From contig NZ_CP014301.1 of the NCBI RefSeq assembly GCF_001562255.1, forward strand, positions 3,999,501 through 4,063,500: a DNA stretch of 64,000 nt. The letters are read 5' to 3'. Source of the DNA: Bosea sp. PAMC 26642 (GTDB lineage Bacteria > Pseudomonadota > Alphaproteobacteria > Rhizobiales > Beijerinckiaceae). Below, piece by piece: positions 7,128 to 28,649 of this stretch. The position numbers were made by a program, and so were the translations under genes. How positions within the stretch are numbered: the first letter of the stretch is position 1; each line of letters begins with the position of its first letter. Below the pieces are notes generated by a model, which had not been told where the DNA came from, made no database searches, and saw only the letters and a list, made by a program, of their open reading frames with translations.

Positions 7128-8006
7128 TCAGGCCTTCAGCCGCCGGCATAAGGCTTCGAGTTGATCGAGCGTCTTGTAGCCGATCTTCATCTCGCCACCG
7201 CCATTAGGGCGATGCTGGATCGAGACGGAAAGGCCGAGCGCCTCTTCCAGAGCCTTCTCGACGGCGCGCGTGTCGGGATCCTTGTCGAGCCTGGGCTTGC
7301 CCGGAACGCTCTTGCTCTCGCCCCTGACCTCGGTCTGCACGAGACGCTCGATATCGCGAACACTAAGACCCTCATCGACGATCTTCTTCGCCATCCGTTC
7401 CGGTTCCGGAACTGATATCAAGGCGCGAGCATGGCCGGCGGATACGGTTCCCTCGCTGACCATCTGCCGCACCGACTCCGGCAGTTTCGACAGTCGCAGC
7501 GTGTTGGCGATGTGGCTACGGCTCTTGCCGATGATCTTGGCAAGATCGTTCTGGGTGTAGTCAAACTCCGAGATCAGCCGCTCATAACCGGCAGCCTCCT
7601 CGATCGCGTTGAGATCAGTACGCTGGACGTTCTCGACGATGGCGATCTCGAGCGCCTCGCGATCGTCGGCCTCGACCAGGATCACGGGAACGTCGTGCAG
7701 GCCCGCCCTTTGCGCGGCCCGCCAGCGCCGCTCGCCGGCGATGATCTCATAGGCGTCGATCATGCCCGTGATCGAACGCACGATCATCGGCTGCAGGATG
7801 CCCCGCTCGCGGATCGACGCGGTCAGGTCCTCCAAGTCACCCTCGGCGAAATGGCGGCGCGGATTGCGCGCGCTCGGACGCAGGAATTCGACCGGCACAC
7901 GCCTTTGGCCGCGCGCCCGGTCGATCGCACCCATTTCCTCGCCGACATCGCCAATCAAGGCCGCCAAGCCACGGCCCAGGCGTGAACGCCCCTGTTCTTC
8001 GGCCAT
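7128..8006 (-). CDS. parB: Chromosome-partitioning protein ParB
   Basis: A 292-residue ParB. The N-terminal RLGRGLAALIGD segment is the usual ParA-stimulating region. The CTP-binding ParB/Srx domain contains GERRWRAAQRAG and ENVQRTDLNAIEEA. A central helix-turn-helix (TQNDLAKIIGKSRSHIANTL) reads parS, and the C-terminal dimerisation domain closes the protein. ParB loads at parS, spreads as a CTP-dependent clamp, and is moved by ParA to segregate origins. I prefer the ATG at 8006, where GAGG lies six bases upstream; ATG 8012 and TTG 8021 are alternatives. A perfect parS lies about 1.4 kb upstream, inside rsmG. Confidence 0.97.
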   Translation of the reverse strand: MAEEQGRSRLGRGLAALIGDVGEEMGAIDRARGQRRVPVEFLRPSARNPRRHFAEGDLEDLTASIRERGILQPMIVRSITGMIDAYEIIAGERRWRAAQRAGLHDVPVILVEADDREALEIAIVENVQRTDLNAIEEAAGYERLISEFDYTQNDLAKIIGKSRSHIANTLRLSKLPESVRQMVSEGTVSAGHARALISVPEPERMAKKIVDEGLSVRDIERLVQTEVRGESKSVPGKPRLDKDPDTRAVEKALEEALGLSVSIQHRPNGGGEMKIGYKTLDQLEALCRRLKA

Positions 8007-8039
8007 CGTCATCCTCGTCAATCCTCGGTCCGAACGGTT

Positions 8040-8870
8040 TCAGGCGGCGGCGCGCAGAGCGCGTTCGCGCTTGATCACTTCGGATGCCAGCTTCAGATAG
8101 GCCTGCGATCCCGAGCAGCGCAGATCGTAGAGCAGAACCGGCTTGCCATAGGACGGCGCCTCAGAGACCCGGACATTGCGCGGGATCACGGTGTCGTAGA
8201 CCTTGTCGCCCAGGAAATCCCGGACATCAGCCATGACCTGGCCGGACAGGTTGTTGCGCGGGTCGTACATCGTCAGCACGACGCCCTGGATGATCAACCG
8301 GGGATTGAGCCCGTTGCGCACCTGCTCGACGGTCTTGAGCAGCTGGCTCAGGCCTTCGAGCGCGAAGAACTCACATTGCAGCGGCACGAGCACGGCATCG
8401 GCCGCCGTCATCGCATTGATCGTGATCAGGCTGAGCGAGGGCGGGCAGTCGATCAGGATATAGGTCAGGTCGGAGCAGCGCTGGTCGTAGACCAGCTCGT
8501 CGATCGCCTTCTTCAGCCGATGCGCCCGGTCCTTGGCGCCGGCGATCTCCAGCTCGACGCCGAGCAGATCCAGCGTCGAGGGCGCCAGGAACAGGCCAGG
8601 CACCGCCGTCTCCTGCAACGCTTGACCGAGTCCGACATCGCCGCAAAGCACATCATAGGTCGACGATTTGCGGCTGCGGCGGTCGACGCCAAGCCCGGTC
8701 GACGCATTTCCCTGGGGATCGAGATCGACGATCAGCACCTTTTCGCCGATCGCGGCCAGGGCCGTGCCGAGGTTGATCGCCGTTGTCGTCTTGCCGACGC
8801 CCCCCTTCTGATTTGCCAAAGCGAGCACACGCGGGCGGCGCGGTAGCAGGATCGGGGTCATATCGGTCAT
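8040..8870 (-). CDS. parA: Chromosome-partitioning ATPase ParA
   Basis: A 276-residue P-loop ATPase of the MinD/ParA class. The deviant Walker A motif KGGVGKTTT is at residues 22-30, with the signature lysine in the second position. VLIVDLDPQGNAS (Walker A') and ILIDCPPSLS (Walker B) follow. The protein binds DNA non-specifically and pulls ParB-parS complexes. The start overlaps the rsmG stop in an ATGA junction, so translation is probably coupled. parB follows 33 bases downstream. Confidence 0.97.
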   Translation of the reverse strand: MTDMTPILLPRRPRVLALANQKGGVGKTTTAINLGTALAAIGEKVLIVDLDPQGNASTGLGVDRRSRKSSTYDVLCGDVGLGQALQETAVPGLFLAPSTLDLLGVELEIAGAKDRAHRLKKAIDELVYDQRCSDLTYILIDCPPSLSLITINAMTAADAVLVPLQCEFFALEGLSQLLKTVEQVRNGLNPRLIIQGVVLTMYDPRNNLSGQVMADVRDFLGDKVYDTVIPRNVRVSEAPSYGKPVLLYDLRCSGSQAYLKLASEVIKRERALRAAA

Positions 8871-9514
8871 GAATCGGCCTGCTTCTCGGCCCCCCTCACC
8901 ATCAGGATTCGGGCGGCGCTGTCTGTCACGGAAGGAACCGTTGAGGCGTGAATCTTCCAATATTTAGAGGCGTCGGTCAATTCGGCATCTAGATGTTGTC
9001 CCTTGGGAAAGAGTCCCAACGCACCGGTTCTCAACAGGTCTTTGCACCACTCCAAAAGTTGCGGCAGTGGCGCCAGTGCACGCGCCGTGACGACATCGAC
9101 TTTGCCGACGAAGTCGCCGATCACATTCTCGATGCGCGCCGCATGAACGGTGACCGGAGCGCCGGTGATCCGCGCCGCATGGCGCAGAAAGGCGCATTTT
9201 CGACCATTGCTCTCGACGAGATCGATATGCCCGCCGGCCTTCTCCATCAGACATATCCCGATCACAAGACCGGGGAAGCCCCCCCCCGAGCCCAGATCGA
9301 GCCAGCGGGTCGCATCGGGAGCCAGAGCGTGAATCTGAAGTGAGTCAGCGATATGGCGGGTCCAGACATCGCCAAGCGTTGCGGAGGAGACGAGGTTCTT
9401 CGCTGTCTGCCATCGCAACAGCTCCGACACCAGTAGTGCCAGGCGCTCCTCTGTTTCACGTGAAACAGGTGTCAAGGCCAATGCGCTGGCCCGGTCTGTC
9501 TTTTCAACACCCAC
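8867..9514 (-). CDS. rsmG: 16S rRNA (guanine527-N7)-methyltransferase
   Basis: A SAM-dependent rRNA methyltransferase of about 215 residues. The motif WLDLGSGGGFPGLVIG is the SAM-binding motif I of RsmG/GidB, and VTARALAPLPQLLEW is the family motif for the catalytic region. The start is a GTG at 9514, one base past the mnmG stop; the frame is open further upstream into mnmG, so a longer form cannot be excluded. The gene carries a perfect 16-bp parS at 9452-9467, so this coding sequence also serves as a ParB loading site. Confidence 0.93.
   Translation of the reverse strand: MGVEKTDRASALALTPVSRETEERLALLVSELLRWQTAKNLVSSATLGDVWTRHIADSLQIHALAPDATRWLDLGSGGGFPGLVIGICLMEKAGGHIDLVESNGRKCAFLRHAARITGAPVTVHAARIENVIGDFVGKVDVVTARALAPLPQLLEWCKDLLRTGALGLFPKGQHLDAELTDASKYWKIHASTVPSVTDSAARILMVRGAEKQADS
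9452..9467. other. parS: parS centromere site (perfect 16-bp palindrome)
   Basis: The sequence TGTTTCACGTGAAACA is an exact match to the consensus bacterial parS. It lies inside the rsmG coding region, encoding PVSRET-type residues near the N-terminus, immediately upstream of parA-parB. ParB in this window has the standard helix-turn-helix that reads this palindrome. Chance occurrence of a perfect 16-mer in 64 kb is very small. Confidence 0.95.
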
Positions 9515-16776: not shown

Positions 16777-17811
16777 TCAGGCTCGCACCGCCGCGAGCAG
16801 ACGCTCGACATGCGCGATCGGCGTGTCCGGCAAGATGCCGTGGCCGAGATTGAAAACAAAGGGCCCGCTGCCGAAGGCGGCGCGGATCGCAGCGACCTCG
16901 GCCTCCAGCTCGGGACCGCCCGCCCGCAGCACCAGCGGATCGAGATGACCCTGCACCGGCACCAGCGACTGGATCTCGTTGCGCGCGAAATCGCGATCGA
17001 TCGCAGTCTCCAGCCCCGAAGCATCGACGCCCGTCGCCTTGACATAGGCCGGGATCAGCCGGCCCGCCCCTCGTGGAAACCCGATGATCCGGGCTGAGGG
17101 ATGCCGCGCGCGTACCGCATCGACGATGCGTTTCGTCGGCGCAATGCACCAGCGATCAAAATCGACCGGTCCGAGCGACCCCGCCCAGCTGTCGAAGATT
17201 TGCACCGCATCCACACCGGCCTCGATCTGGGCGCAGAGATAGTCCGTCGACGCCACGACGATTCTGTCGATGAGCCTCGCAAACAGCTCCGGTTCCCTGG
17301 TAAACAGCGCCTTGGCCGGCCCCTGATCGGGCGTGCCTCGACCAGCGACCATATAGGTCGCCACGGTCCAGGGCGCCCCGCAGAAGCCGATCAGGGCCGT
17401 CTCCTTGGGCAGGGCAGCTTTGACACGGCGGACGGTCTCGATGACCGGCGCCAGCACCGCCTCATCGGCTTCGGTATGGATCGCATTCAGTCGCGCCTCA
17501 TCGGCGACAGGTTCGAGCCGCGGACCTTCACCCTCGACGAACCAGAGCTTTTGTCCCAACGCGTGCGGAATGACGAGGATGTCAGAAAACAGGATCGCCG
17601 CATCGAAGCCGAAGCGCCTGATCGGTTGCAGGGTCACCTCGGCGGCGCGTTCAGGATTGTAGCAGAGATCGAGGAAACTGCCGGCCTTGGCCCTGAGTTC
17701 GCGATATTCGGGCAGATATCGGCCAGCCTGCCGCATCAGCCAGATCGGCGGCTTCGGCAGGACTTCACCCGACAGCGCACGCAGGAAGAGCGGTACGTCA
17801 CGCGTTGCCAT
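16777..17811 (-). CDS. hemE: Uroporphyrinogen decarboxylase
   Basis: A 344-residue cytoplasmic enzyme that decarboxylates uroporphyrinogen III to coproporphyrinogen III. The two family signatures are seen: [17 protein letters not shown] near the N-terminus and the [13 protein letters not shown] region. [11 protein letters not shown] and [11 protein letters not shown] are also typical. The ATG at 17811 (MATRDVPLF) has GGAG five bases upstream. It is transcribed away from the gene-free stretch at 17812-18284; hemE next to oriC is an established arrangement in Caulobacter and Sinorhizobium. Confidence 0.98.
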
Positions 17812-17978
17812 AGCCACTCCGCTCTCAAGGCCTTCTTGAATCAAATAAGAATCCTAGAGAGAGAATCTTCTTTTTTGACTCTTGGAGGGGGGCACATAGC
17901 GCGGCACAAGATCGTCCACAACCAGTCCACAGGCCAGGACGTGCCGGTGCGGCGATACGACCAAGGCCAATCCAACCG

Positions 17979-17993
17979 TTAAGAGTTTCTTAA
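17979..17993. promoter_or_regulatory. CtrA binding site TTAA-N7-TTAA
   Basis: TTAAGAGTTTCTTAA is an exact match to the full CtrA consensus (two TTAA half sites seven bases apart), followed by CCAAT. In Caulobacter CtrA binds such sites inside oriC to repress initiation. Here the site is 38 bp from a parS-like palindrome and within the hemE-proximal candidate origin. It could also control hemE or the divergent gene. Confidence 0.75.
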
Positions 17994-18030
17994 CCAATCC
18001 GAATCCGAGCCGGCGCATGACCCGCCAAAA

Positions 18031-18046
18031 TGATTCACGTGAAACA
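18031..18046. other. parS: parS-like site in the origin region (one mismatch)
   Basis: TGATTCACGTGAAACA differs from the parS consensus TGTTTCACGTGAAACA only at the third base. It lies in the candidate origin, about 8.6 kb from the perfect copy inside rsmG. ParB normally binds several parS sites near the origin, and one-mismatch sites are usually functional. Confidence 0.85.
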
Positions 18047-18133
18047 TCCCCGTTTCCGGCGCACAGCCTCCAGCCTGTTGATCGATACCCCGACTTATAC
18101 AGAGCGCCGGACCGGCCCTTCCAAAAGGTCCGG

Positions 18134-18142
18134 TTGTCCACA
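18134..18142 (+). promoter_or_regulatory. DnaA-box-like sequence
   Basis: TTGTCCACA matches the DnaA box TTATCCACA at eight of nine bases. It directly follows an inverted repeat (18107-18133) with 7-bp arms. It is the best of four DnaA-like boxes in this gap. Confidence 0.5.
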
Positions 18143-18284
18143 TTCCTCCCCAGCCTGGCGGATATCTTTACCGCCTGCTGCAGGCGATCGACGACAGAGG
18201 GCGAACATGGTTGCCGCGTCGCAATTTGCTTTGCCCGGGCGCCGCGCTAGAGGTGGCAGGATCTTGCCGAACCTGGGAGCGGTC

Positions 18285-19115
18285 GTGGCGCGCAATTATT
18301 TCCATCTGCACCTCGTCTCCGACGCGACCGGTGAAACGCTGATCGCAGTGAGCCGGGCCGCCGCCGCCCAGTACGAGACCGTCTCGGCGATCGAGCATGT
18401 CTACCCGCTCGTCCGTTCGGAGGCGCAGCTCGCCCGTGTGCTCGCCGAAATCGAGACCTCGCCCGGAGTCGTGCTCTACACGCTGGTCGAGCCGGAATGG
18501 TCCAAGCGTCTGGAGGATTTCTGCAAGGAGCTTGGGTGCCCCTGCCTCTCGGTGCTGCAGCCGGTGCTGTCGCTGTTCCAGTCCTATCTTGGCCAGGCCT
18601 CGGCTCCGAAGCCCGGCGCGCAGCACGTCCTCAACGCCGATTATTTCCGCCGCATCGATGCGATGAACTACACCCTGCTGCATGATGACGGCCAGCTCGG
18701 CGGCGATCTTGAAAGCGCCGACGTCATCCTGGTCGGCATCAGCCGCACCTCGAAGACGCCGACCTCGATCTATCTCGCCAATCGTGGCGTCAAGACCGCC
18801 AATATCCCCCTCGTCCCCAACGTCCCCCTGCCCGCCGAGCTGGAACGGCTCCGCAAACCCCTGATCGTCGGCCTCGTCGCCAGCCCCGACCGCATCGTCC
18901 AGATCCGCCAGAACCGGCTGCTCTCGCTCAAGGCCGATGACGAGACGCCCTATGTCGATCCGGCCATGGTCGCTGACGAGGTCGCGCAGTCGCGCCGGCT
19001 TTGCGCCCGCAAGGGCTGGCCCGTCATCGATGTGACCCGCCGCTCGATCGAGGAAACCGCCGCCGCGATCCTCGATCTGCTGCGTGATCATCGTCTGCAA
19101 TTCATCGCGACATGA
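18285..19115 (+). CDS. ppsR: Pyruvate,phosphate dikinase regulatory protein (kinase/pyrophosphorylase)
   Basis: A 276-residue member of the DUF299 kinase-PPPase family. These bifunctional proteins switch pyruvate phosphate dikinase or PEP synthetase off and on by ADP-dependent phosphorylation and phosphate-dependent dephosphorylation of a threonine. The start [12 protein letters not shown] and the P-loop-like [16 protein letters not shown] are diagnostic. I use the GTG at 18285 (GTG GCG CGC AAT), with GGGAG five bases upstream; in-frame upstream ATGs would push the N-terminus into the origin-like gap. This gene flanks the origin opposite hemE, and its stop overlaps the maf start (ATGA). Confidence 0.92.
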
Positions 19116-28633: not shown

Positions 28634-28649
28634 TGATTCACGTGAAACC
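28634..28649. other. Degenerate parS-like site downstream of pnp
   Basis: TGATTCACGTGAAACC matches the parS consensus at 14 of 16 bases and keeps the central TTCACGTGAA palindrome. It is the same as the origin-region copy except for the last base. It lies 10.6 kb from that copy. Confidence 0.5.

Follow-up and report, generated by a model that had tools for sequence, protein, structure and literature searches.

The chromosomal origin of Sinorhizobium meliloti adjoins hemE. It is described as free of CtrA motifs and unbound by CtrA (PMC4433202). In Caulobacter crescentus, published accounts place the origin Cori at a boundary between hemE and a COG1806 gene and report CtrA boxes, DnaA-like boxes, an AT-rich tract and several GANTC motifs there (PMC1914354, PMC3973325); five CtrA sites, five DnaA boxes and an IHF site are counted (PMC1914354). 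The origin of Hyphomonas neptunium was located near hemE by marker frequency, with parAB about 7 kb away and two perfect parS sites upstream of parAB, outside the hemE gap (PMC6650430). On chromosome II of Vibrio cholerae, ParB2 is described as spreading from a parS at the origin to replication-control sites. That chromosome uses the plasmid-type initiator RctB and 39-mer sites and not a DnaA-type origin with CtrA, and the account makes no mention of a CcrM site in parS (PMC3688505). Finally, repABC/3parS of the Paracoccus aminophilus megaplasmid pAMI4 has parS close to a putative CtrA site and to DNA rich in GANTC, and cell-cycle control was suggested for it; its parS are of the RepB type, and the GANTC motifs lie about 500 bp off and not within parS (PMC9040568).

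We examined a candidate origin in Bosea sp. PAMC 26642, whose 5.5-Mb genome consists of C1 (5,503,156 bp) and C2 (7,199 bp). The window, that is, the whole stretch of DNA analysed, is the 64-kb segment C1:3999501-4063500. Positions below are those of the window unless C1 or Mb is given, and features quoted without a strand have none assigned. The candidate is the 473-bp intergenic region at 17812-18284 (about 4.0173-4.0178 Mb), proposed on the basis of gene calls, synteny, skew and conservation. On its left, hemE (uroporphyrinogen decarboxylase; 16777-17811, minus strand) starts at 17811, and on its right a gene for a COG1806/DUF299-type Kinase-PPPase, a PPDK/PEP synthase regulator, occupies 18285-19115 on the plus strand. 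The two genes are divergent and are transcribed outward with no gene in between, which agrees with the gene-free stretch flanked by outward-pointing genes of the original prediction, and their boundary is the one found at Cori-kind origins. To the left of hemE lie hemJ (UPF0093) and rho, and farther out mnmG, parA (8040-8960, minus strand; AAA_31/CbiA, named for its place beside parB) and parB (7128-8021, minus strand). Maf and aroE follow the Kinase-PPPase gene on the right; mnmE, coaE and dnaQ are also in the window, their names resting on translations alone. The genome encodes DnaA, ParB, a CtrA homologue (86% identical to the query) and a CcrM homologue. For the last of these, the RAMA domain scored over the cut-off, as it did in one of 14 control genomes (Caulobacter), and the best NCBIfam model was CcrM, at 614 bits under a cut-off of 830. 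A profile search of the genome placed dnaA at 4.265 Mb. The Bac_DnaA model gave four further matches with equal scores in 353-aa frames (C1:2647938, 4390073, 4415492 and 4993595), which are probably copies of an IS21-type IstB helper and not DnaA. As for base composition, C1:3919501-3939500 (L046), about 80 kb from the candidate, has a GC content of 0.404 against about 0.65 around it and is a probable acquired island; C1:4160001-4200000 (L018 and L055, GC 0.544 and 0.585), on the opposite side of the origin, is possibly another acquired region.

The arrangement of the two flanking genes is widely kept: hemE is divergent from the Kinase-PPPase gene in 76 of 80 relatives, and the other four (L128, L133, L135 and L137), which have no hemE match, were excluded from the gap comparisons. 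By Kinase-PPPase protein, the relatives are Bosea. We defined a Bosea-clade set consisting of the window and the 41 relatives at least 87% identical in that protein (L065-L103, L125 and L126), and tallied the other 35 gaps separately. The 42 Bosea-clade gaps are all distinct, with a mean pairwise identity of 57.7% and 67 of the 473 columns invariant. Conserved blocks correspond to the AT/GANTC tract, DnaA-like boxes 1 and 2, the CtrA box, parS, a CTGTTGAT block, TTATACAGA, box 3 and a block preceding the Kinase-PPPase gene, while invariant runs of at least 4 bases fall in the AT/GANTC block, boxes 1 and 2, the CtrA box and parS. The longest of these runs, 18 bases, is that of parS; the maximum in 10,000 column shuffles was 7. 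Two deviations within the clade were observed. HemE of L085 and L089 is only about 58% identical to that of the window, compared with about 76-85% in the other Bosea-clade rows, and hemE may have been replaced beside the origin there with parS retained. In L082 and L084 the gap measures about 900 bp instead of the usual 450 bp or so; since parS and box 3 have not moved on the hemE side, the additional length is on the Kinase-PPPase side.

Among the elements of the gap, the CtrA box TTAAGAGTTTCTTAA at 17979-17993 is perfect. It is the only perfect CtrA-type site in the window, none appeared in 100 shuffles, and the box is perfect in 40 of the 42 Bosea-clade gaps, so that this part of the original prediction was borne out. 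Ten perfect CtrA boxes occur in 1.24 Mb of sampled sequence, and a CtrA box alone is therefore not diagnostic; only the box at 17979 has three DnaA-like cores nearby. These belong to box 1 (TCGTCCACA, 17912-17920; TTGTCCACA in many relatives), box 2 (CAGTCCACA, 17923-17931, 11 bp past box 1) and box 3 (TTGTCCACA, 18134-18142; a perfect TTATCCACA in 5 of the 42 gaps), all on the plus strand. The conserved TTATACAGA at 18095-18103, also on the plus strand, is a possible weak DnaA site. Box 3 is the single match to TTATCCACA with one mismatch in the gap, and across the window such matches are at chance level (3 found, 2.46 expected). Three same-strand RTCCACA cores within 473 bp were found in none of 2470 sampled genome tiles, the core having been picked after inspection of the sequence. 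The DnaA boxes are mostly off-consensus, and 18 of the 42 Bosea-clade gaps have fewer than three RTCCACA cores. The original prediction had paired a DnaA-box-like sequence with an inverted repeat, and here the DnaA-like box at 18134 is conserved and the repeat is not: the 7-bp repeat (18107-18113 with 18127-18133) is kept in just one of the 41 Bosea-clade gaps with a recognised DnaA box and was rejected as an origin element, as was the palindrome GCCTGCTGCAGGC, present in 1 of 42 gaps.

The AT-rich tract at 17832-17883, the likely unwinding element and the tract that had been predicted, contains a 45-mer richer in A and T (0.71) than any elsewhere in the 64 kb, and the tract matches the AT-rich tract of a Cori-kind origin. 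It carries GANTC motifs at 17838, 17849, 17863 and 17877, the third of which is kept in 42 of 42 Bosea-clade gaps and the fourth in 36. Another GANTC, at 18001-18005 just right of the CtrA box, is aligned in 25 of the 42. The gap contains six GANTC sites altogether, a number reached or exceeded in one of 2470 genome tiles.

The invariant run is the 18-mer AATGATTCACGTGAAACA at 18029-18046 on the plus strand. It includes, at 18031-18046, the sequence TGATTCACGTGAAACA, which differs by one mismatch from the canonical 16-bp parS palindrome TGTTTCACGTGAAACA, as expected for the near-perfect parS described originally, and which reads identically in all 42 Bosea-clade gaps; the gap of the Bosea thiooxidans type strain carries this 16-mer too. 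Through the single deviation, the left half comes to hold GATTC at 18032-18036, a GANTC (CcrM) site, in a genome that encodes a CcrM-type enzyme. A structural study of ParB and parS describes positions 1 and 6 of the half-site as those that distinguish parS from the Noc site (PMC7383237); the deviating base is position 2 in that numbering, and thus neither of the two discriminating bases. Genome-wide, we found four parS-like sites with at most two mismatches, all between 3,993,241 and 4,028,149, i.e. within 35 kb, and none with a reversed control pattern. One is the canonical TGTTTCACGTGAAACA at 9452-9467, beside parAB and mnmG, and another is TGATTCACGTGAAACC at 28634-28649 on the plus strand, just past the pnp stop, which has two mismatches and also contains GATTC. 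A site with two mismatches to the left of the origin, C1:3993241-3993256, has a perfect CtrA box beside it at 3993332. The near-TGTTTCACGTGAAACA palindrome and the clustering near the origin and parAB are those of a chromosomal parS of the ParB/Spo0J type, and the best reading of 18031-18046, judged from its sequence, is a candidate ParB loading site built into a Cori-type origin.

Both the sequence and the position of this site are fixed in the clade. GATTC occupies one parS half in 42 of 42 gaps, and in 3 of 56 parS-like sites that the clade has outside the gap; as the genomes are related to one another, the Fisher value for this contrast cannot be read as a true probability. Box 3 lies 101-103 bp from the start of parS in 40 of the 42 gaps, one of which has a further match at 24 bp; another gap has matches at both 24 and 102 bp, and one has none. 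A perfect CtrA box precedes parS by 50-53 bp in 30 gaps and by 62-63 bp in 10, with no perfect box in the remaining 2. The two spacings differ by what looked like one helical turn, but helical phasing between CtrA box and parS was considered and dropped, as the spacing represents a single change on the Kinase-PPPase gene tree and hence a mere hint. A canonical parS also lies 6.8-9.9 kb left of the gap in 41 of 42 loci, the exception being a short locus.

Outside the clade, 3 of the 35 other gaps (L116, L117 and L127) contain a parS-like site with GATTC in one half, in reverse orientation and closer to the Kinase-PPPase gene. Across 150 genomes of the order, 91 sites, spread over 61 genomes, fit the form TGVTTCACGTGAAACA; 78 of them carry A, 12 carry C and one carries G. 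A parS with GATTC in both halves was found neither in these 150 genomes nor in the 80 relative loci. In a phylum sample, the exact variant occurred in 19 of 46 genomes of the same order, in 0 of 89 other members of the class and in 1 of 263 others. At 29 variant-parS loci in other genera, we found no hemE or Kinase-PPPase gene within 1.5 kb on each side, and 6 of these loci have C or G in place of A. Of 297 genomes of the order, two had a CtrA box followed by the variant parS, and both belong to the genus of the window. The variant parS is thus a trait of the order, and its fixed location within the origin one of Bosea, which supports the earlier suggestion of a lineage-specific layout. Literature searches, thin on subscription papers, returned no match to the exact variant sequences, and the papers listed for Bosea with oriC do not mention Bosea; as far as these searches reach, a parS variant that is invariant, half GANTC and built into the origin has not been reported.

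The original prediction had named genome-wide GC skew as a check, with a switch elsewhere as the refuting outcome, and we ran it on 1,240,500 sampled bases, 22.5% of the chromosome, using a two-change-point fit of G-C. The best switches fell at 4.03 Mb (near-optimal 4.02-4.10 Mb) and 1.49 Mb (near-optimal 1.37-1.62 Mb), with the candidate at 4.0173-4.0178 Mb, and an equally good fit arose in 1 of 300 block permutations. A chromosome-wide switch as at Cori-kind origins is located within an interval of about 80 kb. The two-arm fit is weak, accounting for 6% of the variance among 1-kb bins, and the contrast is one-sided, with a G-C per kb of -15.0 for the left arm compared with -0.25 for the right; over the whole chromosome, one arm is negative and the other about zero, and the sign does not change. 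Within the contiguous 3.86-4.22 Mb, the top single change lies at 3.893 Mb and has the opposite sense, the next is near 4.0275 Mb, and the local cumulative skew minimum is at 4.10 Mb. The T-A skew also switches at 4.02 Mb (near-optimal 3.95-4.03 Mb). As a second origin marker, GGGNAGGG was rejected: with arms set by the skew fit and the candidate, its plus/minus strand counts are polarised (22/52 on the left arm, 80/26 on the right), but near the candidate they are not (11/14 left, 12/8 right), and by itself the motif fails to place the ori-side switch. The whole-genome strand totals of GGGCAGGG are 331/243. No dif-like site with 3 mismatches marked the terminus when we used an E. coli-type consensus, which may not suit this bacterium.

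With an interval tens of kb wide, skew alone cannot pick out 17812-18284. Skew combined with synteny to the mapped origins of Caulobacter and Hyphomonas makes the gap the best candidate, and the predicted chromosomal origin between hemE and the PPDK-regulator gene is supported further by the clustering of parS and by the conservation of the DnaA-like boxes, the CtrA box, the AT-rich tract and the parS. We consider it highly probable that the gap is the DnaA-dependent chromosomal origin of the Bosea clade, of the alphaproteobacterial hemE/Kinase-PPPase (COG1806) kind, with a parS built in. An origin here is usual for the class, and the call is well supported at the level of sequence. Cori has five CtrA sites, whereas the Bosea gap has one perfect CtrA box; the gap is also without an IHF-like site and has a parS inside. 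Cori itself is not known to contain a parS. The IHF-like pattern WATCAN4-5WTR was absent from the gap of the window and present in 1 of 42 Bosea-clade gaps, for which reason we class the gap as a Cori-like origin at the same boundary and not as a full-set copy of Cori. With respect to the two hemE-adjacent parallels drawn originally, the Caulobacter boundary held up, whereas the Sinorhizobium parallel fails for CtrA, the motifs of which are described as absent there (PMC4433202).

The working that we infer from these elements, comprising every binding event, the unwinding site, the activity of the origin and the effect of ParB on it, would be as follows. DnaA bound to the same-strand boxes at 17912, 17923 and 18134 would open the AT-rich tract at 17832-17883, and phosphorylated CtrA at 17979 would keep it closed in cells that are not replicating, in the manner of Caulobacter. 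ParB from the parAB genes 10 kb away would load at 18031, in the interval that separates the CtrA box from box 3, besides loading at the canonical parS at 9452. ParB clamps could then slide over the origin and couple its firing or its pull-apart to segregation. Chromosome II of V. cholerae offers a precedent for ParB extending from an origin-proximal parS to sites that control replication (PMC3688505).

A further reading, which we put forward tentatively and regard as possible but doubtful, is that the origin bears a methylation-gated centromere, in which the methylation state would decide ParB loading inside the origin. In Caulobacter, GANTC near the origin is reported to be hemimethylated in about 80% of the cells of a mixed population (PMC3973325). 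If Bosea is alike, the GATTC in its parS would be hemimethylated for most of the cycle. Firing of the origin would accordingly leave the half-canonical, half-CcrM parS hemimethylated for most of the cycle, fork passage would time ParB loading, and ParB in turn would shield or free the nearby CtrA and DnaA sites.

We give an even chance to the main alternative account of the same base, namely that the origin is here and that GATTC is irrelevant to methylation, the ParB of the order simply tolerating A at this position. The A would then have been kept because a weaker parS is needed beside the origin, or for another reason. The predominance of A in 78 of the 91 variant sites, also far from hemE, and the presence of the exact variant in 19 of the order's 46 sampled genomes against 0 of 89 in the rest of the class speak for tolerance. 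CcrM is described as conserved in most Alphaproteobacteria (PMC3973325), and a variant limited within the class to the order fits a property of the order's ParB better than one of CcrM across the class. Likewise, the Caulobacter origin has GANTC, yet CcrM control of replication is presented there only as a hypothesis to test (PMC3973325). Tolerance sits less easily with the distribution of GATTC, which is found in 42 of 42 in-gap sites but is missing from 53 of 56 sites outside, where equivalent bases should mix. Moreover, the lack of any parS with GATTC in both halves among the 150 genomes and 80 loci suggests that A is costly, and the gap is enriched in GANTC, with six sites against a single tile of 2470 with at least six.

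Other explanations question the origin or the identity of the 18-mer. The gap might be a divergent promoter region only, with a CtrA-controlled promoter and the origin elsewhere, for instance at dnaA. Divergent hemE and Kinase-PPPase genes do need promoters, a conserved promoter-like block at 18224-18262 precedes the latter, and CtrA boxes are commonly located in promoters. However, dnaA, at 4.265 Mb, falls beyond the near-optimal skew interval, a promoter does not comprise a parS, DnaA-like boxes or an AT tract, and marker frequency is reported to place the H. neptunium origin near hemE and not at dnaA (PMC6650430), so that we find this account very unlikely. It is slightly less improbable, though still very unlikely, that some other protein recognises the 18-mer and that it does not act as a parS: the parS identity comes from sequence comparison, and two invariant bases extend past the 16-mer on one side only. 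Against this, the 18-mer holds a palindrome one base off the canonical parS, in the genome's only such cluster and beside parAB. A coding origin of the conservation, through the frame that is open in the window from the ATG at 18030 into the Kinase-PPPase gene (a 361-aa ORF, 18030-19115), was refuted by the frame count and has next to no probability; of the 42 Bosea-clade gaps, 27 have lost the register of that frame, 12 interrupt it with a stop and 3 leave it open.

Returning to the parS built into the Bosea origin, its interest lies in the overlap. Replication origins, centromeres and sites of methylation are ordinarily distinct elements, and how the start of replication is coupled to segregation in bacteria is an open question. 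Here one invariant 16-mer between a CtrA box and a DnaA-like box combines a parS with a CcrM site. If the methylation-gated reading is true, one 16-bp element would tie together replication, methylation and segregation, and a related lineage (L116, L117 and L127), with its oppositely oriented parS, would have arrived at this device independently. The clade comprises dozens of sequenced non-model species, and a single base divides a site that is parS only from one that is parS plus GANTC, which makes a link between methylation and segregation at the origin directly testable.
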